A DNA stretch of 64,000 nt. Source: DHVE2 group archaeon. Lineage in GTDB: Archaea; Thermoplasmatota; Thermoplasmata; Thermoplasmatales; Aciduliprofundaceae. The stretch spans positions 1 through 64,000 of the forward strand of contig JALWRZ010000014.1 of assembly GCA_026993785.1 (NCBI GenBank). Direction: 5' to 3'. Positions 26,255 to 47,018 of the stretch are shown here, in pieces. The translations under genes were made by a program, and so were the position numbers. Within the stretch, counting starts at the first letter, position 1. Every line of letters starts with the position of its first letter. The notes beneath the pieces were generated by a model. The model was not told where the DNA came from, did not search any database, and saw nothing but the letters and a program-made list of their open reading frames with translations.

Positions 26255-29146
26255 TCATTTTTTGAACTTGAATTTATAAAGTAATGCTGCTGCAACTGTT
26301 CCAGCGGTGATCCCTATGTAAAGAAGATTATTCTTTATGAACGCAAGTATCTTTTCCCACAGGCTCATTTTTTTAACGCCCACGAAGAATGGGATTGTGA
26401 GTGTTCTACCTATTCCGGAAGAGGCATTAAGCTGCACTGATAGCTTGTATTTTCCATCCTTAAGCTTGTTTGCGGGAATTAAAAGAAGAGTGGCACTTTG
26501 GTTTGGAGCAAGATAAACAGCGGTCTCGTTGGTGTAATTCTTCCCACCATAGATTATCATCCATGTACTGTTATTAACCCCACTCAATCTTACTTTGATA
26601 TGCACCACATCCGCAGCGTTGCCGGTGTTTTTCAGGAAAAGCTGAAGCTCTACTTTCTCTCCCTCCTTGAGCTTGCTGGCCTGCATAATAAGCGAATGTT
26701 TTTCTGGAACCCCGATTTTTATGGGAAGCGAAAGGAGAGTGGAGTTCTGAAACATTACGTTGAGATACATTTCGTAGCTTCCTGCAGGAAGGGAGGAGGG
26801 GAGGGTGATATTCATCTCCACGGTCTTATTTTCTCCGGGGTTCAAAAAAAGAAGGGGGGAGGACATCAGCGCGAATTTTGAGAGAGGACCTGAAATATTT
26901 AGCGTGAATAAGGCGGGGACATTTCCCGCGTTTATTATATTCGCCCGGAGCTTGTAATAGCCCTCTCCTTTGATGATAGATACAATCTCTCCTTTGGCTG
27001 CGTGCACAGGGGCTACTATCAACGCGGTTTCTGCATGCCGTGTTATATTGGAAGAGGAGATTACTGTGAAATGGATTGTGTTTTTCTCGTATGCTGGCGT
27101 TGTTGTGGGCACATAAATTTGAAGCTCATAGGTGAATTCAGCTCCAGGATCAAGAGAGAAATTTCCCAGAGATGGGGTATGAAATGGCCACGGTCTATTC
27201 TCACTGAAGAAGATGTGATAGGTATCTCTACAGTTTCCATTATTATAAATGTTCAGATTTACGGATATCCATTGCCCGGGTAATCCTAGAATGTTGCTAT
27301 AATATCCAATCTGAAAGTTTCCGTGTGGGAGTATTGTGATATTGAGCTCCTTAACTGTATATTTTCCTGTGGCGATGGAAGTGACATTGATCTCCATAGA
27401 ATATGTAGATGAGAGCACACCATTTTTTGAAGATATATTCATGGTGACGAGTCTAGCCACTCCTGGAGTAACATTCTCTATTCTACTGGGATAGCTCACA
27501 GAGAACAGCGAGGAATTGTAATTCACTTCCAAGGTATAATTATCCATCGTATTTCCTGTGTTGATGAGGTAGAATGAAAAATTGGTGCTGTTGCCCGCTT
27601 CTAAGGAAATGCTCCATTGACCCTTAAGCTCAAAGGAGAAATTGCGTATGAATATGGACTCCGATGCAGAGTTATCATCCTCCTCATATTCTGGAATATC
27701 ATTTTCAGGATCCAATGATATTCTTATTTCATGAGTCCCGGGCTCTATTCGAAATGATAGGTTTAGCTGAGTATGTAGATTAATAAATATCTTCTCCTCC
27801 TGTAGAAGTGAATTATCGCAGTATACGGCATATTTGCTCCCTACTGGAAATGTGGATGAGAATGCTGCCTTAATTGTCAGATTTTCCATAGATGAGTGAA
27901 GCTCAAAGCTCTCCACTTTTAAATTTGGGAATTCCCCGCTTCTGAAGTATAGAAAACTTTTTCCCTCTATTTTCTTTACCCAGACCACTCCTATGCTTCG
28001 AGAGTTTATGGCCATGGATGGCTCAAAGGATGCTTCTTCGCTGAGATTTATCAACTCTCCCCTCCTATTTCCTTTCAGATCAAAGGTGGAAAATCGAACT
28101 ATTCCTCGGTCTACATCGTCCCAAAGAAGAAAGAGAGAAGAATCCTTCACAAAAATCTGGGGATTCATGGAATTTTTTCCGTCCAGGGGAGTAAGATTTT
28201 TGTCGTCTATAATAGTGTCACCGGCTTCATTGAGTTTGGTGAATATGACCTCGTAGGCAAGCATCTCCCTAGAACAGGAGAAAGAAACGTAGAGTGCATC
28301 ATCATAGAACACTGCATGGATTGTGCTCTTGGGCGACACCACACTTATCTTTTTCACGGGTCCTAAAGAACTTCCAAAGGATGATATTTTTCGATAGAGC
28401 ACGCTGTATCCAGGCACGCTTCTTTCATCTATCCATAGCACATGAGCATTGTTGCTGTTGTCTACAACAATCTCAGGTCTTGTGGAGTTGCTCTCATCTT
28501 GTGAGATATCCTTAGCAGAGATCATGGGCTTTCCATCTCTGTTAAAAATATCGTAGTATATATCCCAGTTTCCGTTTCTATCATCCTGCCATACCAGGTG
28601 AAGGTATCCTCTGGAATCCATAGCTATTCGTGGCTCTGTGGCATTAAAATCCCCCTCAACTAACGGCTTGGGTGGAATTTCAAGGTCTATATCTTCCTCT
28701 GTGTAGGTAAGCCTGGCAAAATATATGGCCCAGTGGGAATTTATTTCTCTCTGCCAGACAACATACACGGTGTTATTGTTGCTCACCATGTCCGGGTTGG
28801 TATCGTTGCCTGGATAGGTAGTAATTCTCGTATCATTTAGAAGCTTGAAACCCTCTGTATCTACCTTAAGATAGTATATATCCCAGTTTCCATTTCTATC
28901 ATCTTGCCAGACTATATGGTAATTTCCTAAGCCGTCCCTACCTATCCTGGGATTATCCGCATTTCCCATCCAGGTTAATCTCGCAGCCAAGTTCCATTTT
29001 ATATTATCCTTTATTTCACCCACAGAAGCATTTAGTTCCTGGATAGCAAATCCACTCTTATACTCCAAACTACCCACGCCGCCGAGGATTATCAGAAGTG
29101 CAAAGGAAATTGCGATAAGCTCATAGTATATTGGTTTCAGCATCAT
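26255..29146 (-). CDS. Large exported beta-propeller / CARDB-type surface protein with C-terminal anchor
   Basis: 963 residues from ATG 29146 (SD GGAG; ATG 29158 lies deeper in the upstream regulator gene). A signal anchor (YYELIAISFALLIILGGVG) is followed by repeated blades with HIVWQDDRNGNWDIYYLK, HLVWQDDRNGNWDIYYDI and HVLWIDERSVPGYSVLYR, a seven-blade-like beta-propeller at about 50-400. From about 430 come CARDB-like beta domains (DNSASESIFIRNFSF, LNIYNNGNCRDTYHIFFS, ANIINAGNVPALFTLNIS), then a membrane helix and basic tail (LLYIGITAGTVAAALLYKFKFKK). Function unknown; adhesion or envelope scaffolding is likely. It overlaps the upstream wHTH gene by 26 nt and lies between that gene and the archaellin gene. 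Confidence 0.7.
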   Translation of the reverse strand: MMLKPIYYELIAISFALLIILGGVGSLEYKSGFAIQELNASVGEIKDNIKWNLAARLTWMGNADNPRIGRDGLGNYHIVWQDDRNGNWDIYYLKVDTEGFKLLNDTRITTYPGNDTNPDMVSNNNTVYVVWQREINSHWAIYFARLTYTEEDIDLEIPPKPLVEGDFNATEPRIAMDSRGYLHLVWQDDRNGNWDIYYDIFNRDGKPMISAKDISQDESNSTRPEIVVDNSNNAHVLWIDERSVPGYSVLYRKISSFGSSLGPVKKISVVSPKSTIHAVFYDDALYVSFSCSREMLAYEVIFTKLNEAGDTIIDDKNLTPLDGKNSMNPQIFVKDSSLFLLWDDVDRGIVRFSTFDLKGNRRGELINLSEEASFEPSMAINSRSIGVVWVKKIEGKSFLYFRSGEFPNLKVESFELHSSMENLTIKAAFSSTFPVGSKYAVYCDNSLLQEEKIFINLHTQLNLSFRIEPGTHEIRISLDPENDIPEYEEDDNSASESIFIRNFSFELKGQWSISLEAGNSTNFSFYLINTGNTMDNYTLEVNYNSSLFSVSYPSRIENVTPGVARLVTMNISSKNGVLSSTYSMEINVTSIATGKYTVKELNITILPHGNFQIGYYSNILGLPGQWISVNLNIYNNGNCRDTYHIFFSENRPWPFHTPSLGNFSLDPGAEFTYELQIYVPTTTPAYEKNTIHFTVISSSNITRHAETALIVAPVHAAKGEIVSIIKGEGYYKLRANIINAGNVPALFTLNISGPLSKFALMSSPLLFLNPGENKTVEMNITLPSSLPAGSYEMYLNVMFQNSTLLSLPIKIGVPEKHSLIMQASKLKEGEKVELQLFLKNTGNAADVVHIKVRLSGVNNSTWMIIYGGKNYTNETAVYLAPNQSATLLLIPANKLKDGKYKLSVQLNASSGIGRTLTIPFFVGVKKMSLWEKILAFIKNNLLYIGITAGTVAAALLYKFKFKK

Positions 29147-29417
29147 ATCTTTCTCCATCGGCCACCATGGTTATCCTCAGGGTATTGTTCTCGAAATCCA
29201 TGACGGCATTGAAATCCTCGATCTTGGATTTGTATTTCACTCTTTTTCCTATTTTTTCTTCTTGAAGGAGTCCTATCTCCACAAGTTTCTTTATTCTTCT
29301 GTAGCAAACTGTTACGGGTATATTGTACTCTCTGCTAAGTTCCCTGATCCCCTTTGGCCTCGCCGAAGTACCTAAGAGGATTTGCGAGGCATAGCGGTCC
29401 ATAAAGATGCTGACCAT
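29121..29417 (-). CDS. Winged-helix regulator A, coupled to the propeller protein gene
   Basis: 98 residues from ATG 29417, which has SD GGAGGTGA; the frame upstream to 29456 is not coding. HTH: PKGIRELSREYNIPVTVCYR with recognition helix RRIKKLVEIGLLQEE, then a beta wing (KRVKYKSKIEDFNAVMDFEN). It is clearly related over its whole length to the divergent regulator at 29640-29990. Its 3' end overlaps the large propeller protein gene, so it probably controls or is made together with it. Confidence 0.75.
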   Translation of the reverse strand: MVSIFMDRYASQILLGTSARPKGIRELSREYNIPVTVCYRRIKKLVEIGLLQEEKIGKRVKYKSKIEDFNAVMDFENNTLRITMVADGERYDAETNIL

Positions 29418-36246: not shown

Positions 36247-36993
36247 ATGAGTAAGAAATGTTTGAAATCATTGAAGGTAGGAATACTATGTAAGGATTTC
36301 AGATTTGGATATCGTGTTGCTTTGGAGCTAAAAAAGAGGAGTATCCCCTACGAGATGCTTCTCAGCGAAGACCAGCTCAAAGAGTTCGAGGTGATAATTT
36401 CAGATATGCAGGACCATGATTTCATACACTGCTCGACTCCAGAGGAATGCGCCAGAAAAGTTCATTCCTATCTTTATGGAAAGAGAAGGTTTGAAAGAGT
36501 GATTGTAGGTATAGACCCAGGTCCCAAGCCGGGAATAGTGGTGGTTGGTGATGGAAATTTTGTTGAAGAGGTACAGTTGAGCAGCGTTGATAAAGTGAAA
36601 AGCTACGTAGATGAAGTCTATCGAGGATACTCTCCCGAACACTTCATTATCAGAATTGGAGACGGAGACATAGTAAATCGAAATAGGATAATAAATTCTC
36701 TTGTAGAAAATTATAGGGTTGAAATGGTTGATGAGAGAAACACCTCTGAGGCCATAAACAACAAGGATATAGAATCTGCAAAGGTTATCGCTTTCACGAG
36801 AGGCAGATTGGTGAGAAACAAACTCAATGTAGTTATAAGGGAGGGATATCTGAAAGAGATCCAGAGAAGGAGCAGAATAGAGAGTGGCGGAAAGATAACT
36901 ATATCCAAAGAACTGGCCCGGGAAGTAGCGTTAGGCAAGATGAGCCTGAAGGATGCCGTAGCCCTCATGGGAGGAAAAGATGAAGAGAGATGA
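36247..36993 (+). CDS. Conserved-looking protein with a RuvC/RNase H-like fold motif
   Basis: 248 residues, not recognised as a named family. The centre has VIVGIDPGPKPGIVVVGDGN, the first strand and acidic residue of RuvC/RNase H-like folds; ERNTSEAINNKDIESAKVIAF near 165-185 could supply the later acidic residues (E, D). The C-terminus is basic with a helix-turn-helix-like end (GGKITISKELAREVALGKMSL). A nuclease or nucleic-acid-binding role is plausible but unproven. The gene overlaps the next by 14 nt and follows hutU by 28 nt. Confidence 0.55.
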   Translation: MSKKCLKSLKVGILCKDFRFGYRVALELKKRSIPYEMLLSEDQLKEFEVIISDMQDHDFIHCSTPEECARKVHSYLYGKRRFERVIVGIDPGPKPGIVVVGDGNFVEEVQLSSVDKVKSYVDEVYRGYSPEHFIIRIGDGDIVNRNRIINSLVENYRVEMVDERNTSEAINNKDIESAKVIAFTRGRLVRNKLNVVIREGYLKEIQRRSRIESGGKITISKELAREVALGKMSLKDAVALMGGKDEER

Positions 36994-37306: not shown

Positions 37307-38074
37307 TTATTTCTTCCATTTTGGTGCGGGAGCGCTTTTTCTACCTTTTCTACCAAGGAGCATGAGGGAAAATACTGTGGATAGGGCAATCAATAATGCC
37401 AGTCCAGAGTAGTAGATGTAATCATAGGATGGCTTCTCGCCGTAATAGAACTCATAGGAATAGGCAGTTTTTCCATTCTCGAAAACTATACCATGGCTCT
37501 CTATTACTATTTTCAAGGTATGCTTTCCTTTCTGAAGATTCTGCGGAATCCAGCGATATACCACGGTCTTGGTGGAGTTGGCAGCCACCTTATCTACGGT
37601 GGTATTTCCTATATATTCTCCGTCCACATAGAAGCGAAGCACCACATCTTTTATCTCATAGCTGTTGGGATTCTTTATCTTCACCTTTACAGGAAGCGGT
37701 GACACCACGCTCAGTGTTATCTCCCTCTCCAAGATCTTTATCTTGCTTCCTGTGTAACCATAGATGCGAAAACTTATGTAGAGGGTCTGTGGGACCTTAG
37801 GCGTTGTTATCTCAAACTCGAATTTTCCATCATTGGAAGTTTTAGATACGCTATTTAAAGGCTTTGCTCCTGTGAGATTTTGGCCTGCAATAAACATCTC
37901 ACACTTGTATCTCTCAAAATACTCGTCCACATAGACCTTGTATGTCACATTGCTCTGGGTAGCAGCTATTATAGGACCTTGAATATGCACGCTACCCGAC
38001 GATGCGTGGGTATAGGGAAGCATCGCAGTTAAGCTTAGAAGGACAAGAACGATGAAAGTTATTTTATGCTTCAT
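37307..38074 (-). CDS. Exported beta-sandwich protein with C-terminal membrane anchor, coupled to AglB
   Basis: 255 residues from ATG 38074 (SD GGAGGAG; the open frame to 38149 lies in the AglB end). Signal peptide: ITFIVLVLLSLTAMLPYTHA. Two Ig-like domains follow (TYKVYVDEYFERYKCEMFIA; VKVKIKNPNSYEIKDVVLRF, a CARDB-like second unit). A helix and basic tail close it (YIYYSGLALLIALSTVFSLM, then GRKGRKSAPAPKWKK). ATGA overlap with the AglB stop means coupled translation; it may assist or be a substrate of AglB. Confidence 0.65.
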   Translation of the reverse strand: MKHKITFIVLVLLSLTAMLPYTHASSGSVHIQGPIIAATQSNVTYKVYVDEYFERYKCEMFIAGQNLTGAKPLNSVSKTSNDGKFEFEITTPKVPQTLYISFRIYGYTGSKIKILEREITLSVVSPLPVKVKIKNPNSYEIKDVVLRFYVDGEYIGNTTVDKVAANSTKTVVYRWIPQNLQKGKHTLKIVIESHGIVFENGKTAYSYEFYYGEKPSYDYIYYSGLALLIALSTVFSLMLLGRKGRKSAPAPKWKK

Positions 38075-41000
38075 TTTCTCCTCCTCCATAGCATTAATAT
38101 GGCAATTAGGAATGCAATGGCTGCACCCCATATTCCATACCATCCCCACGGCATCGAAAAAGCTGTGTAATTGCTTACATCCTTGGCTTTTATATACGCC
38201 TGTGCCATGGTTACCTCTGTGTTCTGAATGGGTATGTTGAGAATATGCACAATCTTGCCATCCTCTATGATCTCAAGCTTCACTGGAGAGGATACTCCTG
38301 GGGACTCCCGAAGGGCTACGAGCTCCACCTCTATGCTTCTTTTGTGTCCCGCTGCTACAGTAACTTTGGTAGCGTTCTTACCATGGATGAGGATATGGGG
38401 TTCCCAGCCTCTGGTCCTTAGCTCATCCAAATTTAGAATTTCCACCGTGTACTCAACTTCACCATTTCCCTTGTTCTCTATGGTAACATTGTAAATAAGA
38501 GTACTGGAGCTCCATTTCTCCGCAGTATAGTTGAACATGCTCTCATATTGCTTGTTCACATACACAGTTAAATATGCATCGGACACATCACCGTATCTCG
38601 CTCTTATGTGCACGGTATTGTTTCCAGCTCTGGCATTTTCTGGAGCTTTCACTTTTATAAACACAAAGGTTCCCTGACCAGGATAGAGCACATAGGTTGT
38701 GGAATTAATAATTCTCCATCCCGAAAAGCTCTCCAGCTTCACGCTTTCCTTGTCATTTCCAACATTTTTAAGCTTCAGGAATACATGGATTATTCCTCCT
38801 GGGGAGACCTCCGTATCTGCTGCAATGATGTTCATGGTAACCTTATGAACACTTTCGCGCTCCAGTACAAGGTCGGCATAGGTATTGCTATGCACCTCTA
38901 TGTTTCTACTGGCGGAATAATTAATCATAAGTCCATATTCTTCAACAGCAGTTTTAGCAGTGAGAGTGTAATCTCCAGCAGGCAAAATTATGGAGTATGT
39001 TCCATGGGCCTTTATCTCCATACTGCCATAGGAGGTATCTACACGGATCGGCACACTCACCTTTTCATTCTTAAGGTACACAGAACCCATAACCATGTAG
39101 CCTCTCTGATACACTAAAACTTTGGAGAATATCCCCTTGGGTACATTCACAGTGCCAAGATAAGCATAATGGCTATTCCCCATGATGTACCAGCTATAGA
39201 GCATATATTTTCCAGGGGTTATATAAACATCAAATTGTCCGTTCGTGTCGGTAGTTATAGTCATATTATTCTTTCCTTTCTCGAGAGCTATGACTTCTAT
39301 CACCGCGTTGGATGCCGGCTCCCTGCCTGCCCAGGCTATCCCAATCCAGTGAGCCAGAATCGCGGATTTTTCAATGTAGAGATGCACAGAAGTTTCTCCA
39401 TTTATCTCTTTCTCCACTCTGGATGAGTAATGATAGTAGATGCCATTTATAAGCCTCGTCTCATTTACTACGAAAATGTAATCTCCTGCCGGTAGAAGAA
39501 TAGAGTGAGTATTCACAAGCATGCTTCCTTCGCAGCTTATGATTTTCACAGGGAAACGCAAGGTGACATTCTCTTCTATTATGCTTACCCAATATCCTTC
39601 CTCCAACTGCAACTCGAAGGTAGAGTTCTCTGTAATCCTTAAAGCTTTAAGGGCAACATTAGCTCCGCTCTTGGCATAAACAAGATAATCACCAAGAGGC
39701 AGGGTTACACTTTTACCGGTTGCAATCTGTCTTGCATCTCTATACCAGATCACCTGGGTGGCATCAGTAATCACGGTAATATGAGCATAGGCTGTGTAAT
39801 TGATATCTTTCATCACTTTTCCTTCATCCTTGTAGAGAGAGAGATGATAGGAGGTCTTATAGGTCCTCTCACCTCCATTTATAAGTACTGTATAATCTCC
39901 AGGAGGCAACTCTACATAGTAAGAGTCTATAACATTTTCAACAATCTTTGTGTAATTGGCCGATTTGAATAGCAGGTTAACTGCGATGTCGTTGGGCTTA
40001 CCCTCTCTGTAAATCTTACCGGTAACAATCACAAGCTTAGGCTCCACCTTAATCAAATACTCCCCCTTCTTCAACTCCGCTCCAATTTTCCGATAGCCAT
40101 AAACCCACACATCGATTTCACAATTGGAGGTGGAGGCCACATGGAAGTTTCCGTTGGGAGGTATATTTCTAACAAGGAAATAGCCATTATTGTCCCTAAG
40201 AAGCACTAATCCGTTCTTTATGGTCTCATTTTCCTCCCTTATTCCATCTCCGTTCTTATCGTAGTAAACATAGCCTGTAATGTTCTGCGTAGCATAGAGT
40301 TTCACTGTTGTTTCCACATTACCCTGAAGATTCACGCTCATTCTTCCAAAGTAGGGATGATTCTTCTTATCCCAGCCAAAGAATCCAAGAGTATATTTCC
40401 CCTTAGGCAGATAAATTTCGAAGAATCCGGTATTGTTGGCATAACTCCTGTAGAACTTGCTTCCACTAAACACAGAAATCTCCACACTGGTATAATTCTT
40501 CCCGTTTTCCACATATCCTTCGAGAGAGTAAGCATCTCTTAGAATTATATTCATTTTCATGCTCTCATTGAGCTCAACAAGATTCCAGTATACTGCCTTG
40601 CCGTCAGAGGTGGAATAGAGAATATAGATGGAATATATGCCTGCAGGTAAATGAGCGGCAAATGTTCCTTTGGAAGATACCCTCTCAAGGTATACATCAT
40701 GGGGCACAAGCTCACTTTTTATCTTCACAATTGCCCCAGCGGCAAAATGACGATTGTATAGCACCGTGCCACTTAGCAGATACGCCTTGCGAACGGTGAT
40801 ATTCTGCTTTGCCGTATAATTCCATTGATAAACGGGCACGATGTATCTGCTGGAGTAATTATCCCCGTAGTGAGCTACCACTGTGTAATTACCTGGAACA
40901 ACAATTTCCTTATAGCTACCATTCTCATCGGTGTGGAAAACATATTTCGCATCTCCAAAGGCTTCAACCACAGCATTAGGTACTGCTTCACCGTTTTCAA

Positions 41001-44000
41001 AGGTCACCGAACCTTCCAAATAAGAAGGTTGAAGCACCACATCCTTGCTAACATTGCGCCCTGCATTGAGGGTCACACTGCTTATCTTTTCAAATTTCTT
41101 CCCATTTATTATAAGTCCTATGTTGTAGGTATGAGGTGGTATATTCTTTATCTCATAGCTTCCGTTGTTTACCTTAGCTTCCTTAGTGAAGTTGTAGGTG
41201 CTGTTCCAGAGTATTACCGTCGCATTGCTAAGTTTAACATCCTTATCTGTGAGCTTTTTATCATGATCCACATCATAATATACGACGCCATTCAAATTAG
41301 CAGCCTTGATAACTATATCTTTATGAATTACATAGTTGGGCTTAAGTCTCATAGCCTGCTCTTCAGTAACATTTATATGGATTCTCTGAAGCACAGTTTT
41401 TTCTTGCAACATTAGCTTATCCAGACCTCCATCCGTGGACACTACCAGGGTAAGATTACCCGCCACAGCAGTTATGGAGTAGTAACCCTGATTATCCGTT
41501 AGAACGGTGGCATGGGGTATATTGTACTCATCATAGAGGGTAATTCTAACATGTTTTAGAGGTTCACCGTTAGAAAGAGTGACCCTACCCTTTATTATAG
41601 CACCCTCATAGAATTTAACCATCACAACATCATTCGGCAGAATACGATACGCAGGAGGATTTAGGTCCACCGTGCCTTTGCCCTCTCTCTGATATTTCAG
41701 GGCGAGTTCAATAGGTATAGGTTTCCAAGCGTCGCTATGATTCTGATAATCTTTATATGGATTCCAGAACGCCGTCTTATAAACGAGCTTGAAATGCGTC
41801 ATATTCCAAGCCTGCATAGGTGGGTATGTAGAAAGATTTTGAGAGAAGCTTGGAATGTCAGGGCCTTTGCCTATATCCAGGCCAGAATATCCAATGAAAG
41901 TGCGATATAGCATGGAGTGGAAGAACATGGGCTTATAGATTATCTTGTAGTTTACAATGTGAGCATGCATAGGCACCTTATCCAAATCATAGGTATTACC
42001 CTTATCATCTACAGCTTTGAGCTCATAGAAATCATAGGGTACAACGGTTCCTCCATATTCTTTGATTCTTCTATCACCCAGCTTTGCGGGGGCATAGAAG
42101 ATTCCCGTGTTCCTTCCAGAGAATGGGAAAAGTCTGTAATCAACAGCAAAGTACCTGATATCATAGCCAGTTATATTTCTTATGGCATCGTAAAGTGCCA
42201 CAATTCTACTCTCCGGATGATGAGCTATTATTCCTTTTATCATCACATACTTGGTGTTTATGTCCGAAATATCCGATTCATATTTTCCGTAATAGGAGGG
42301 ATTGCTAAGCACCTCATTTCTATATTTTCCAGGATCTTTCATAACATTCTCTATCTTGTTAGCCTGCTCCTCACCAAGATAGCGGCTAAGTTGCTCCTTC
42401 ACCTGAGGACTTAGGGAACCGTGATGTTTGGCAAAATCCCCATCGAGAAGTCTCGCGATGAATAGGGCTATTACCTCACTTTCATTCTGCGCGGTTATAA
42501 TCTGAGCGGCCACCTGATAACCGTTCTGGAAGTTATCGGCTACTGTGGGATGCTTACCCTCCCTCACAGCTTCAAATCCATAATCCCACCAGGAGACGAA
42601 GGCAGGCCTATCTTCCGGAGGAGTACTATTATCCTGCTCGCTTAACCAGTGCCAGGCTCTAGGCCATGGATAATCCGGTTTGGGCACAGAATAACCGAAG
42701 CCTCCAAGATACCATGGAGAGTATCTTTGATACGTGGTGTTGTTAGGCCTCATAAAAGTGGGCATTGCATTATAGATCTGCTTATCGTACTTATCCTTGA
42801 TCTCATAGGGTATTCCAGCATCCACCGCGCTCCATACATTGGGCAAAATCACAAGGGTAGCCAGAACTATCACACCTACGACCTGGGTGAACTTTATGGT
42901 CTTTCTAAAGCTCTTCCTGAACCTGCCCTGATACTTGCCCAGTTCTTTAGCCGCTTCCTTAATCTTCAGTTTCTCCAGCAACCATATTATTGCAACGCCA
43001 CTTGTGAGTGCAAAGGCCGGAGCTGCGTTAAACATAAATCTCGCCGCGGAAATCGCCATATATATGGCCACCAGGGAGTAGATGACAAAGAAGAGATAGT
43101 ACTCCTCCATCTTCTTCTTGATGAGATAGAGGATATATGCTATACCTAAGAAGGCAAGGAGGAATACTCCAGGACCGAAGGACATGGCAAGGGTACCCAG
43201 CGCTGCGGGCTGTGCTTCTGCAATGGTAGAGTAAAGCTTGCTTTTGACAAAATACCCTTGTCCGCTTACCAGCGTTTCCCACAAAGTAGGTGCAAATAGG
43301 TTGATAAGAAGAGCGCCCACGCCTATTCCAACACCGGCCATGAGGAATACAAAGGGCCATGGATACTTGGATGTAACTTCAAAGTATATTCCTAGTATTA
43401 TGGCAACCAGCATTAGGAGAAGAGGCACAGAATACCACTGGCCAAGCCTGTGGGTTCCTGCATACCATGGCAGTGCCATAAGAAAAGCCACGAGAGTGAA
43501 GATGATCATAAACACAGTCACGTGGAGATTGGACTTATTTCTGAACCTGTTTATGAAAAGCTGGAAGATAAGATAGATGAATAGGATTGCCTCGGCATAG
43601 GTATATCCTTTCCAGGCCAGCGCCACAGAGCCAAGGGATGCCCCTGCAAGAGCAGCGTAAATCACCGGCTTGCGATTCTCCCTAAAGAACTCACGCAGTC
43701 CATTTTTCACTTCCGATGCGTTGCCCCAGTTCTTTATCCACTTTTTGTACTTCACCTCCTTTAGGGCCTTGAGGAAGAAGTAGAACATCAGGATGATGAA
43801 GAAGAGATCAAAGGCATCCCAATCCGCCTGGGTGGCAACACTCCTCATCATGTGCGCTGGCATTATGGCAAGAAGGAACGCTGAGATAAGTCCAACTTTT
43901 CTATTAAATGCCTCCTTGCCTAGAAGATAGAGGGGAATTATTGTAAGCGTGCCCCATATCGCAGGAAATAGAATTAGGGTGAGCATGGCAGCATTGTAGC

Positions 44001-44319
44001 TACCCATAAAGGGATAGAAAACATAGCTGAATAGCACTATGGCCCAGTGGAAGAGTGGCGGCCTTGGGTTATTCACCCCTATAGGATAATTCAGCATAGG
44101 GTCTTCAATAAGCTGATGCTTGGCCTGAAGAATATATGATATAATCCTCTCATGATAATAGGAGTCCGACCCACCCGACACGGAATATCCGTATTTGAGC
44201 GATGGCCCTATTGCCCAGTAGGTTCTCAAGAAAAAGGCTAAGGCCATGATAAGGCTCAGAAGCACGATCACGAGCACTGTGGTGCGTGGTATATTTAAGT
44301 TTAATTTCACCCTGCGCAT
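38071..44319 (-). CDS. aglB: Giant AglB/STT3 oligosaccharyltransferase with about 1150-residue beta-domain extension
   Basis: 2082 residues, over twice the usual 800-970 for archaeal AglB. N-terminal membrane part (1 to about 500) with catalytic motif GGSDSYYHERI (D52); WWDYG at 577-581 in the soluble core. The core seems to end near 895. Then about ten carboxypeptidase-regulatory-like beta modules follow (IKGRVTLSNGEPLKHVRITL, LEGSVTFENGEAVPNAVVEA, ITGYVYYDKNGDGIREENET, VMGSVYLKNEKVSVPIRV), a CARDB-like pair (FLKLKNVGNDKESVKLES) and a final helix (WYGIWGAAIAFLIAILMLWRRRK). The enzyme moves glycan from a dolichol carrier to Asn of N-x-S/T at the outer face. The extension could bind cell-wall or glycan. 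No frameshift seen along it. Confidence 0.88.
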   Translation of the reverse strand: MRRVKLNLNIPRTTVLVIVLLSLIMALAFFLRTYWAIGPSLKYGYSVSGGSDSYYHERIISYILQAKHQLIEDPMLNYPIGVNNPRPPLFHWAIVLFSYVFYPFMGSYNAAMLTLILFPAIWGTLTIIPLYLLGKEAFNRKVGLISAFLLAIMPAHMMRSVATQADWDAFDLFFIILMFYFFLKALKEVKYKKWIKNWGNASEVKNGLREFFRENRKPVIYAALAGASLGSVALAWKGYTYAEAILFIYLIFQLFINRFRNKSNLHVTVFMIIFTLVAFLMALPWYAGTHRLGQWYSVPLLLMLVAIILGIYFEVTSKYPWPFVFLMAGVGIGVGALLINLFAPTLWETLVSGQGYFVKSKLYSTIAEAQPAALGTLAMSFGPGVFLLAFLGIAYILYLIKKKMEEYYLFFVIYSLVAIYMAISAARFMFNAAPAFALTSGVAIIWLLEKLKIKEAAKELGKYQGRFRKSFRKTIKFTQVVGVIVLATLVILPNVWSAVDAGIPYEIKDKYDKQIYNAMPTFMRPNNTTYQRYSPWYLGGFGYSVPKPDYPWPRAWHWLSEQDNSTPPEDRPAFVSWWDYGFEAVREGKHPTVADNFQNGYQVAAQIITAQNESEVIALFIARLLDGDFAKHHGSLSPQVKEQLSRYLGEEQANKIENVMKDPGKYRNEVLSNPSYYGKYESDISDINTKYVMIKGIIAHHPESRIVALYDAIRNITGYDIRYFAVDYRLFPFSGRNTGIFYAPAKLGDRRIKEYGGTVVPYDFYELKAVDDKGNTYDLDKVPMHAHIVNYKIIYKPMFFHSMLYRTFIGYSGLDIGKGPDIPSFSQNLSTYPPMQAWNMTHFKLVYKTAFWNPYKDYQNHSDAWKPIPIELALKYQREGKGTVDLNPPAYRILPNDVVMVKFYEGAIIKGRVTLSNGEPLKHVRITLYDEYNIPHATVLTDNQGYYSITAVAGNLTLVVSTDGGLDKLMLQEKTVLQRIHINVTEEQAMRLKPNYVIHKDIVIKAANLNGVVYYDVDHDKKLTDKDVKLSNATVILWNSTYNFTKEAKVNNGSYEIKNIPPHTYNIGLIINGKKFEKISSVTLNAGRNVSKDVVLQPSYLEGSVTFENGEAVPNAVVEAFGDAKYVFHTDENGSYKEIVVPGNYTVVAHYGDNYSSRYIVPVYQWNYTAKQNITVRKAYLLSGTVLYNRHFAAGAIVKIKSELVPHDVYLERVSSKGTFAAHLPAGIYSIYILYSTSDGKAVYWNLVELNESMKMNIILRDAYSLEGYVENGKNYTSVEISVFSGSKFYRSYANNTGFFEIYLPKGKYTLGFFGWDKKNHPYFGRMSVNLQGNVETTVKLYATQNITGYVYYDKNGDGIREENETIKNGLVLLRDNNGYFLVRNIPPNGNFHVASTSNCEIDVWVYGYRKIGAELKKGEYLIKVEPKLVIVTGKIYREGKPNDIAVNLLFKSANYTKIVENVIDSYYVELPPGDYTVLINGGERTYKTSYHLSLYKDEGKVMKDINYTAYAHITVITDATQVIWYRDARQIATGKSVTLPLGDYLVYAKSGANVALKALRITENSTFELQLEEGYWVSIIEENVTLRFPVKIISCEGSMLVNTHSILLPAGDYIFVVNETRLINGIYYHYSSRVEKEINGETSVHLYIEKSAILAHWIGIAWAGREPASNAVIEVIALEKGKNNMTITTDTNGQFDVYITPGKYMLYSWYIMGNSHYAYLGTVNVPKGIFSKVLVYQRGYMVMGSVYLKNEKVSVPIRVDTSYGSMEIKAHGTYSIILPAGDYTLTAKTAVEEYGLMINYSASRNIEVHSNTYADLVLERESVHKVTMNIIAADTEVSPGGIIHVFLKLKNVGNDKESVKLESFSGWRIINSTTYVLYPGQGTFVFIKVKAPENARAGNNTVHIRARYGDVSDAYLTVYVNKQYESMFNYTAEKWSSSTLIYNVTIENKGNGEVEYTVEILNLDELRTRGWEPHILIHGKNATKVTVAAGHKRSIEVELVALRESPGVSSPVKLEIIEDGKIVHILNIPIQNTEVTMAQAYIKAKDVSNYTAFSMPWGWYGIWGAAIAFLIAILMLWRRRK

Positions 44320-44429: not shown

Positions 44430-45251
44430 ATGGATTACTGGTTTTCGGAGGAGCATACATCCAACGTAAAGCTGAGCTTTCGTATAAAGGAGGAAATAGC
44501 CCATGTCAAATCTCACTATCAGGACATATATCTCTTTGAGACCTACGAATTTGGGAAAATGCTTGTGATCGATGGAACAGTTCAGACCACCATAAAAGAT
44601 GAGTTCATATATCACGAGATGATAGTGCATCCCCCCATGCTTACTCACCCTCAGCCCAAGAGAATATTGATAATAGGAGGTGGGGATGGGGGTGCAGCCA
44701 GGGAAGTTTTGAAGCACGATCCTGAAGAGGTGCATGTGGTGGAAATAGATAGGGATGTGGTAGAGCTCAGCAAAAAATATCTACGGGAGCTATCCTCCGC
44801 TTACCAGAACCCGAGGGTTCATCTCCATATTGAGAACGGTGTGGAATTTGTTAAAAAAGAAAGAAATTTTGATGTAATAATAATAGATTCTACGGATCCT
44901 GTAGGCCCAGCAGCCGGTCTATTTGAAAGAGAATTCTATGAAAGCCTGAAAGCATCTTTGAATGAGGGTGGTATAATCACCCAGCAGTGTGGCACACCTT
45001 TCTATCACCCAGAGGAGGTGTGCAAGGCTAAGAATACCCTGGGGAAGATATTCCGCTATGTGAAGATCTACCTAGCTTATATACCTACATATCCCTCAGG
45101 TATGTGGGCTTTTGTGATGGCCAGTGATTCTCCTATAGAAAGACGAAGGAGTTGTGGGTTTAAGACCAGATACTATAACGATGAGATATATGACTCATCC
45201 ATGGTCCTTCCAAACTTTGTAAAGGAATACTGCGATAATTATAGGGATTAA
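44430..45251 (+). CDS. speE: Polyamine aminopropyltransferase (spermidine synthase)
   Basis: 273 residues, normal length. Motifs: MDYWFSEEHTSNVKLSFRIK start, YDI-equivalent YLFETYEFGKMLVIDGTVQTT, GGGDGGAAREVLKHDPEEV for decarboxylated SAM, VVEIDRDVVELSKKYL and IIDSTDPVGPAAGLF. In archaea such enzymes often take agmatine as well as putrescine, so the substrate is open. TATA-like GATTAAAATAC at 44396-44406 predicts a leaderless ATG. The last 57 nt overlap the convergent PLD-like gene. Confidence 0.93.
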   Translation: MDYWFSEEHTSNVKLSFRIKEEIAHVKSHYQDIYLFETYEFGKMLVIDGTVQTTIKDEFIYHEMIVHPPMLTHPQPKRILIIGGGDGGAAREVLKHDPEEVHVVEIDRDVVELSKKYLRELSSAYQNPRVHLHIENGVEFVKKERNFDVIIIDSTDPVGPAAGLFEREFYESLKASLNEGGIITQQCGTPFYHPEEVCKAKNTLGKIFRYVKIYLAYIPTYPSGMWAFVMASDSPIERRRSCGFKTRYYNDEIYDSSMVLPNFVKEYCDNYRD

Positions 45252-47018
45252 GTAAAGAGGCGAGAACACAAATTTTCTTTCCTCCTTGGACAGCTTTATT
45301 TCCACGAAATCCATCCTTCCCGAAGAATCGACAACCTCTCCACGGATCACATGTTCTCCGGATAAATTAAGGTGGTGCCTCATTTCCGTGCCATTGTAAA
45401 TCATATGACCATCCACATATATCCGACAATATGTGATATCCCCGATACTATCTCGCATATCCACCCAAATGCCGTTATCCCTTGTTATATGTATCACAGC
45501 CTTTAGCTCTCCGGGAGCCTCAGAATCATATTGAAAAATCTTAAGAAAATATTTTACTGCCTCCCTACTCTCTATTATTAGGGAAACTTCACGATTGTTC
45601 ATTGCGGAAAAGAGATCCAGATTCATGCTTCCCACAAGAATTGCGGTGTCTCCTATTATAAGCTTTCCATGAAGATGCGAGATATAATGTCTCTTGCCTT
45701 GAAATCGCGGAAAATTTCCCTTCTCAACAAGTATGTCTGTGGTTTTATTTCTCACCATTTCCCATATCTCGTTTCCTATGTAGGGTGCCTCTATTCTTAG
45801 GTTCTTCTGCGTCGTAATAAAGCTCTTAAAGATTTCCATAGAGAAATCAGGAGAAATTACGGGGTATATTCTTGCGCTCAAATTCACACTTCTAAAGTTT
45901 TTTCTCCGAAGTTCCATATGCTCGCCCTTCTCAAATTTCACATTCTTGAACTCCCCTCCATACTCACGAATATCCTGTAAAGGGGCAAAATCTCTAAGAA
46001 ACATTCTCCTGAGATAGGTTGCAAACTCCTGATTCTTTACTATCACTCCATACCCGCGATTGCCGCAGGGAGTGAGAGCACGATCATCAAAGTTCTCTGT
46101 AGCTACAAGAATCTCCGAACCATCCTTTATGATGAGCTTGGAATGAATAAACGCGTATCTATCATATATCTTTCTTTCTGGGTCATTTATCATAAATCTT
46201 ATCCTTGCCCCATTCTTCCAGAGTTTATGCACATAGTACTTCTCTCCTGAGGTGAGACCTCCTATCGGATTTCCTTCAAGAAGAATAGATACATTAACAC
46301 CCATTTTCAATTTCTCCAAGAGCGAATTTGTGAATTCTTCGCTATCGAGATAATACCCTTCAATAAACAGCTCCTGACGAGCAGTTTTTATAAATCTCAG
46401 AACTTCGCGCCACTCATCTGGATATGGAAAAATTTCTAGAGAGGCATAGAAACTTCGTGGCTTATAATCACTTTGCCCGATCGCATGATAATTGCTCCAA
46501 TCCCGCGCAGTATTGGTATCCCTCAAAGAGAGTCTTCTCAAGATATGCCCCTGAGACAGGGATACTCCATCTCCTACCCATCCATCGCCCTTATATTTAT
46601 AATCTCCGTATACCACCACGTCCACTACCCTATCGCCCTTCTTCAGAAGAATTACATCTCCCGAGTTTCTCATATGAAATCTCCCGCCACCAAAGTCTGA
46701 GAAATTGTAGCTGGGCCAAAAGCCCATGAATTGGAGAAATGCACTGCCATTCTCCGCTATGTACATCTTCTCTTCTGGAGCGATGAGACCTTTAAGAATC
46801 AGCTCATAAGTGGAAGTTGCGAGGATATATGAACTTAGAGAGACCCATATATCCATGGGATTGTAAATGCAAATGTACTCCATCTGTGTGCCCGAATAGG
46901 GATAGGGAGATACCTCACATATTTTTAAATCCTCATTGTTATAGGAAGAACCTCTCACACTACCCAGCGATGGAAGGAAAACAAGAAAAATGAGAAAAAG
47001 AGCTACTTTATCCTCCAT
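45195..47018 (-). CDS. Exported phospholipase D-like protein with N-terminal lamin-tail-like domain
   Basis: 607 residues. Signal peptide: VALFLIFLVFLPSLGSVRG. An LTD-like domain (LKICEVSPYPYSGTQMEYIC, VVVYGDYKYKGDGWVGDG) covers about 25-190. Two HKD-type motifs follow: HSKLIIKDGSEILVATENFD and HLHGKLIIGDTAILVGSMNLD, the pair needed for one PLD active site. A C-terminal helix (LYLIPIIIAVFLYKVW) anchors it. Phosphodiesterase or nuclease activity outside the cell is possible. ATG 47018 lies 16 nt inside the upstream gene. Confidence 0.82.
   Translation of the reverse strand: MEDKVALFLIFLVFLPSLGSVRGSSYNNEDLKICEVSPYPYSGTQMEYICIYNPMDIWVSLSSYILATSTYELILKGLIAPEEKMYIAENGSAFLQFMGFWPSYNFSDFGGGRFHMRNSGDVILLKKGDRVVDVVVYGDYKYKGDGWVGDGVSLSQGHILRRLSLRDTNTARDWSNYHAIGQSDYKPRSFYASLEIFPYPDEWREVLRFIKTARQELFIEGYYLDSEEFTNSLLEKLKMGVNVSILLEGNPIGGLTSGEKYYVHKLWKNGARIRFMINDPERKIYDRYAFIHSKLIIKDGSEILVATENFDDRALTPCGNRGYGVIVKNQEFATYLRRMFLRDFAPLQDIREYGGEFKNVKFEKGEHMELRRKNFRSVNLSARIYPVISPDFSMEIFKSFITTQKNLRIEAPYIGNEIWEMVRNKTTDILVEKGNFPRFQGKRHYISHLHGKLIIGDTAILVGSMNLDLFSAMNNREVSLIIESREAVKYFLKIFQYDSEAPGELKAVIHITRDNGIWVDMRDSIGDITYCRIYVDGHMIYNGTEMRHHLNLSGEHVIRGEVVDSSGRMDFVEIKLSKEERKFVFSPLYLIPIIIAVFLYKVWKDHG

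Follow-up and report, generated by a model that had tools for sequence, protein, structure and literature searches.

The AglB oligosaccharyltransferase encoded in the analysed stretch of DNA (the window; 64,000 nucleotides of contig JALWRZ010000014.1 of a DHVE2 group archaeon) has an extended C-terminal tail, and its gene overlaps that of a smaller membrane-anchored protein, the companion. Together the two proteins look like a form of the enzyme in two parts that has so far gone undescribed and that is found throughout an archaeal class, the Thermoplasmata. In archaea, oligosaccharyltransferases are usually presented as enzymes of one subunit, with well under 1,100 residues. No published description of a long AglB tail or of the companion was found in the open-access literature. 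The architecture, the conservation and the operon of the pair were observed, and the coordinates of its features are presented in Table 1.

Table 1. Features of the AglB gene and of the overlapping companion gene, in positions of the window
Feature	Positions	Strand	Extent in the protein	Remark
AglB/STT3 oligosaccharyltransferase with extended C-terminal tail	38071..44319	-	2082 aa	
Membrane domain, STT3 fold	42808..44319	-	AglB residues 1-504	First acidic motif GGSD 49-52; second, DxD, 166-168; TIAE 365-368
Extracellular catalytic/globular domain	41650..42807	-	AglB residues 505-890	WWDYG 577-581
Tail module 1	41320..41649	-	AglB residues 891-1000	Conservation equal to that of the catalytic core
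Tail modules 2-11, transthyretin/CarboxypepD_reg-like	38845..41319	-	AglB residues 1001-1825	Boundaries approximate
Two CARDB/Ig-like domains	38215..38844	-	AglB residues 1826-2035	Boundaries approximate
C-terminal transmembrane helix, then basic chain end	38077..38148	-	AglB residues 2058-2081	Model and hydropathy
ATGA overlap of AglB stop and companion start	38071..38074	-		
Companion: signal peptide, unassigned beta domain, CARDB domain, transmembrane helix, basic cytosolic end	37307..38074	-	255 aa	Proposed second oligosaccharyltransferase subunit

The AglB gene was one uninterrupted frame, and its product was the sole PF02516 match in the genome (1.66 Mb, 99.8% complete). The STT3 domain was placed by Pfam at residues 16-438, with a score for PF02516 of 78 bits against a cut-off of 24.5. 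The catalytic part looks active as judged from its sequence, since both acidic motifs and the TIAE and WWDYG motifs were all there; over the phylum, the WWDYG and the acidic and TIXE motifs were kept. Residues 1-1110 were modelled at a pLDDT of 88.7, and the best fold matches of this N-terminal part were AglB and STT3 structures, which bore out the original identification of the protein as AglB. With the model for the archaeosortase-A-associated AglB subfamily (TIGR04154), the protein scored 249.7 bits, below the curated cut-off of 450, and the match ended at residue 616.

The tail was modelled (residues 893-2082, mean pLDDT 89.5) as all beta with one terminal helix at its end, and the same helix was called as a transmembrane segment by hydropathy. 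Pfam matched CarboxypepD_reg over several stretches of the tail (E 7.6e-31). By direct reading of the sequence, 11 signatures of the PxGxY type were located between about residues 953 and 1785 (near residues 953, 1062, 1142, 1226, 1306, 1388, 1473, 1542, 1611, 1702 and 1781), indicating 11 transthyretin/carboxypeptidase-regulatory-like modules. The original prediction of a long tail of about ten beta modules, two CARDB-like domains and a second membrane anchor was thus close, with the module count raised by one and the CARDB-like domains lying after module 11. N-glycosylation sequons were more frequent in the tail than expected from composition (29 observed, 11 expected), and the same was observed in 56 orthologous tails (1565 observed, 786 expected). 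The catalytic ectodomain shared the enrichment, and the transmembrane part was at expectation. Complete long forms end in a transmembrane segment with basic residues and sequons were enriched only on the outer parts, and both features support a tail that is extracellular and tethered to the membrane at both ends. Some other extracellular proteins encoded in the window were also enriched in sequons, so the enrichment tells where a part of a protein lies and that it is likely glycosylated, but not what it does.

The length of AglB was compared in relatives, and the tail, at first taken for a peculiarity of one protein, turned out to be a trait of the class. AglBs of about 2,040-2,430 aa were found across the Thermoplasmata in independent assemblies, including single-contig chromosomes; the named loci with a long AglB include DHVE2/Aciduliprofundum MAGs, I-plasma, Thermoplasmatales, Methanomassiliicoccales and many uncultured Thermoplasmata. 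Nearly all intact frames in the window's own order were of about 2,030-2,130 aa, those in the remaining class were mostly of 2,050-2,430 aa, and those of family f16 (Methanomassiliicoccales-type) were of about 1,830-2,000 aa. The tail measured 1234 +/- 36 aa in 56 orthologues (coefficient of variation 2.9%), and its columns were 91-100% occupied in an alignment of 28 AglB sequences. Identity to the tail of the window protein was only about 20% in distant members of the class; a steady length at this level of identity implies that the number and order of the modules are nearly fixed, which suggests from sequence comparison that constraint acts on module number more than on sequence. Module 1 was conserved to the same degree as the catalytic core. 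PF02516 missed AglB in several genomes of families f6, f11 and f16, and a class-specific profile recovered it in 18 of 20 tested; these lineages may be wrongly annotated as free of oligosaccharyltransferase.

One genus, g25 (L043 = G060, G207, G208; three genomes), had an AglB open frame of about 1,430-1,450 aa, from which the middle ~620 aa of the tail were lost. At L043, the locus of this genus that was examined, the catalytic part, the first modules, the terminal anchor and the companion were all kept. Genus g25 is a natural middle-deletion of the AglB tail, and the loss of the middle with both ends kept fits a spacer between two functional ends. The other broken or short AglB frames examined were explained by contig ends or frameshifts. 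At L042 (G058), L148 and L166, AglB lay in two frames with the tail resuming in another frame, likely through a frameshift that may be real or an assembly error, and at L079 (G267) it was seen as two long ORFs.

The gene following AglB had been noted originally as an ATGA-coupled gene for another anchored beta protein. That description was accurate (the AglB stop is at 38073-38071 and the companion start at 38074, and the product has a CARDB domain and a transmembrane helix), but its treatment as a detail was not. When the class loci in which AglB was unsplit and had 600 bases or more of room were searched with a companion profile, a homologue was the next same-strand gene in all 94 of them, a count that includes some genomes twice. 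The companion gene is therefore an invariant neighbour of the class AglB. Of these loci, 75 had NTGA at the stop codon of AglB. A CARDB domain was detected in 39 of the 41 companion homologues scanned, and a PDB profile search with the companion returned CARDB domains together with many antibody chains, which describes it merely as 'Ig-like'. Genome-wide matches to the companion profile outside the class were weaker, as generic CARDB proteins would be expected to give. Among the AglBs outside the class that were examined, long or short, the companion adjoined only that of f28, where it was encoded directly 3' of an AglB of 2,357 aa.

The genes flanking the AglB-companion pair were common only to close relatives, with the exception of the gene at 36247. 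This gene (window 36247-36993, + strand) encodes a 248-aa protein without a Pfam match, in which the stretch IVGIDPGPKPGIVVVG resembles the start of a RuvC-like fold; its homologues were near AglB in 21 of the 75 loci compared. The window also encodes a 967-aa candidate surface glycoprotein with 31 N-glycosylation sequons where 11 were expected (26255-29158, - strand), and a predicted exported protein of 607 aa with a lamin-tail domain, two phospholipase-D-like stretches and a C-terminal hydrophobic segment (45195-47018, - strand).

Tail length and companion were surveyed within the phylum Thermoplasmatota. AglBs with about 3 modules and without an anchor (about 1,120-1,280 aa) were found in f31, f33, f34 and f42, and those with 4-6 modules, also without an anchor (about 1,290-1,430 aa), in f29, f30 and f46. 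The class Thermoplasmata, with 11 modules, two CARDB domains and an anchor, comes next in this series; AglBs of 2,320-2,740 aa were found in f28, f35 and f37-f39, and AglBs mostly of 3,000-3,300 aa in f40 and f41. The motif of module 1 (YYxGAxIxGxV ... PHD ... TDxxGxFSxxAPAGN) could be made out in almost every AglB of the phylum that was examined. A tree built from the catalytic part joined the families outside the class in one fully supported group in which long and short tails were mixed, so that an ancestral long anchored tail and repeated gain are both possible. Long anchored tails without the companion were found outside the class at L076, L078, L080, L085 and L086, so the link between tail and companion is not a strict one. 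The AglBs of L078 and L080 (f40, f41), of about 3,200-3,300 aa, have even longer anchored tails with a thrombospondin-type-3-like acidic stretch, and the next same-strand gene there encodes a subtilisin-like protease in place of the companion.

The chances appear about even that AglB is the catalytic subunit of a two-subunit oligosaccharyltransferase (OST), of which the doubly anchored tail and the companion form an extracellular scaffold or docking platform. More tentatively, the giant doubly anchored AglB and its obligate second subunit might be a class-wide archaeal OST holoenzyme that arose independently of the eukaryotic OST accessory subunits. By homology and motifs, AglB would move the lipid-linked glycan onto the Asn of N-x-S/T sequons outside the cell. 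The 11 transthyretin-like and two CARDB-like domains would follow, and the last transmembrane helix would bring the chain back into the membrane, as indicated by the model, hydropathy and sequon distribution, so that the tail would be tethered at both ends beside the active site. Module 1 and its neighbours may be the older part, lying by the catalytic domain, and the middle modules a spacer of normally fixed length. The companion, a type I membrane protein presumably co-translated from the shared operon, would pair with AglB, most likely through the CARDB and transmembrane end. We infer that the two proteins form a complex and handle acceptors; the assembly might position or retain acceptor proteins leaving SecY, dock other envelope-biogenesis factors, or both, a job which in the eukaryotic OST and translocon is done by separate accessory polypeptides. 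The original suggestion that the tail might hold substrates may thus be right.

That the number of modules is fixed while their sequence is little conserved agrees with a scaffold or spacer, and that the companion is invariant and in most loci overlaps AglB agrees with a second subunit. The OST is, in addition, single-copy and retains its catalytic motifs. Against a two-subunit enzyme, an operon may also be conserved because its proteins need only to be expressed jointly, and genus g25 shows that the middle of the tail is dispensable. The fold search of the tail gave no global match to any solved structure that would hint at a specific mechanism.

Alternatively, the tail might be mainly a surface-coat element, that is, a heavily glycosylated, doubly anchored stalk which is the enzyme's own substrate, adds to a glycoprotein coat and has no part in acceptor handling, the companion being another coat protein. 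The excess of sequons in the window's tail and in its orthologues is concordant with this, as is the retention of the tail in wall-less relatives. A coat, however, needs neither fusion to the only OST of the cell, nor a near-fixed number of modules, nor an invariant overlapping companion, and the sequon excess is shared by some other extracellular proteins of the window. This alternative is therefore considered unlikely.

It had also been proposed that the tail could reach the S-layer; in this alternative it would glycosylate or anchor the S-layer protein. Some relatives do have surface layers (Picrophilus, and some of the acid-mine 'plasmas'; PMC3750248), and in such acid-mine relatives an added S-layer role may exist. 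Most Thermoplasmatales are without an S-layer, yet genomes of f6 (Thermoplasmatales-type) keep a full-length tail, and Cuniculiplasma has AglB and no S-layer by electron microscopy (PMC5155288). In addition, the C-terminal transmembrane helix returns the tail to the membrane. Reaching the S-layer is very unlikely as a general role, and is disfavoured because the mostly wall-less Thermoplasmatales keep both tail and anchor (shortened in one genus).

A third alternative is that the tail was derived from the translocon modules of eukaryotic NOMO and EMC7, or has a specific ancestor in common with them, and is a translocon scaffold by homology. NOMO consists of about 12 prealbumin-like domains (PMC11186639), and human NOMO2 was the best PDB sequence match of the tail profile (E 2.4e-31, summed); it was also the best match for a profile of the first modules that included short tails, and NOMO_5th matched 22 of 33 tails in a Pfam scan. 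The score, however, added up matches of individual repeats whose order was not consistent, SdrD_B, SpaA and other transthyretin-like families matched the 33 tails comparably often, and NOMO was not among the best fold matches. A control profile built from two tails of the 3,200-aa type had no PDB match, but two sequences are too few for this to be informative. Orthology of the tail with NOMO was not supported, the similarity being from repeat to repeat, without colinearity or a global likeness of fold; descent from NOMO modules is highly improbable, and the likeness is read as one of analogy and superfamily relationship only.

That the long frame is a fusion created by sequencing or assembly error, a suspicion raised by its unusual length alone, was ruled out for practical purposes by the orthologues of equal architecture throughout the class, in independent assemblies that include single-contig chromosomes, and by the errors met in relatives, which were splits and so ran in the opposite direction.

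If AglB and the companion do form a complex, some archaea have a multi-subunit OST with a directly testable accessory factor, and there would be a natural counterpart against which to study how scaffolds were built around STT3 in eukaryotes. Such a complex would also be relevant to the organisation of N-glycosylation in wall-less acidophiles and in methanogens of the gut. The companion is a sharp handle for such work, as it was present wherever the class form of AglB was seen.

Among known systems, AglB-L of A. fulgidus (PDB 3waj/7e9s) has the same membrane and catalytic domains and motifs as the window AglB; it was the best fold match of residues 1-1110 (E 1.5e-27) and was matched in sequence over residues 48-625. 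In contrast to the window protein, it is about 870 aa long, lacks a C-terminal anchor and has no sequence match to the transthyretin-like tail. We know of no companion for it. Archaeal CARDB-domain surface proteins share the CARDB domain with the companion, but the companion gene is set apart from theirs by its orthology and its link to AglB. NOMO, a member of the BOS complex of the ER multipass translocon, has a similar string of domains, but is a separate protein and not an OST. No eukaryotic OST accessory subunit or TRAP family was among the Pfam or listed PDB matches of the tail or the companion. The eukaryotic OST (STT3, ribophorin I, OST48 and others) has the STT3 catalytic fold in common with the window enzyme, and extra lumenal domains surround its active site, as is proposed here for the extracellular tail, although in eukaryotes these domains are on separate polypeptides.
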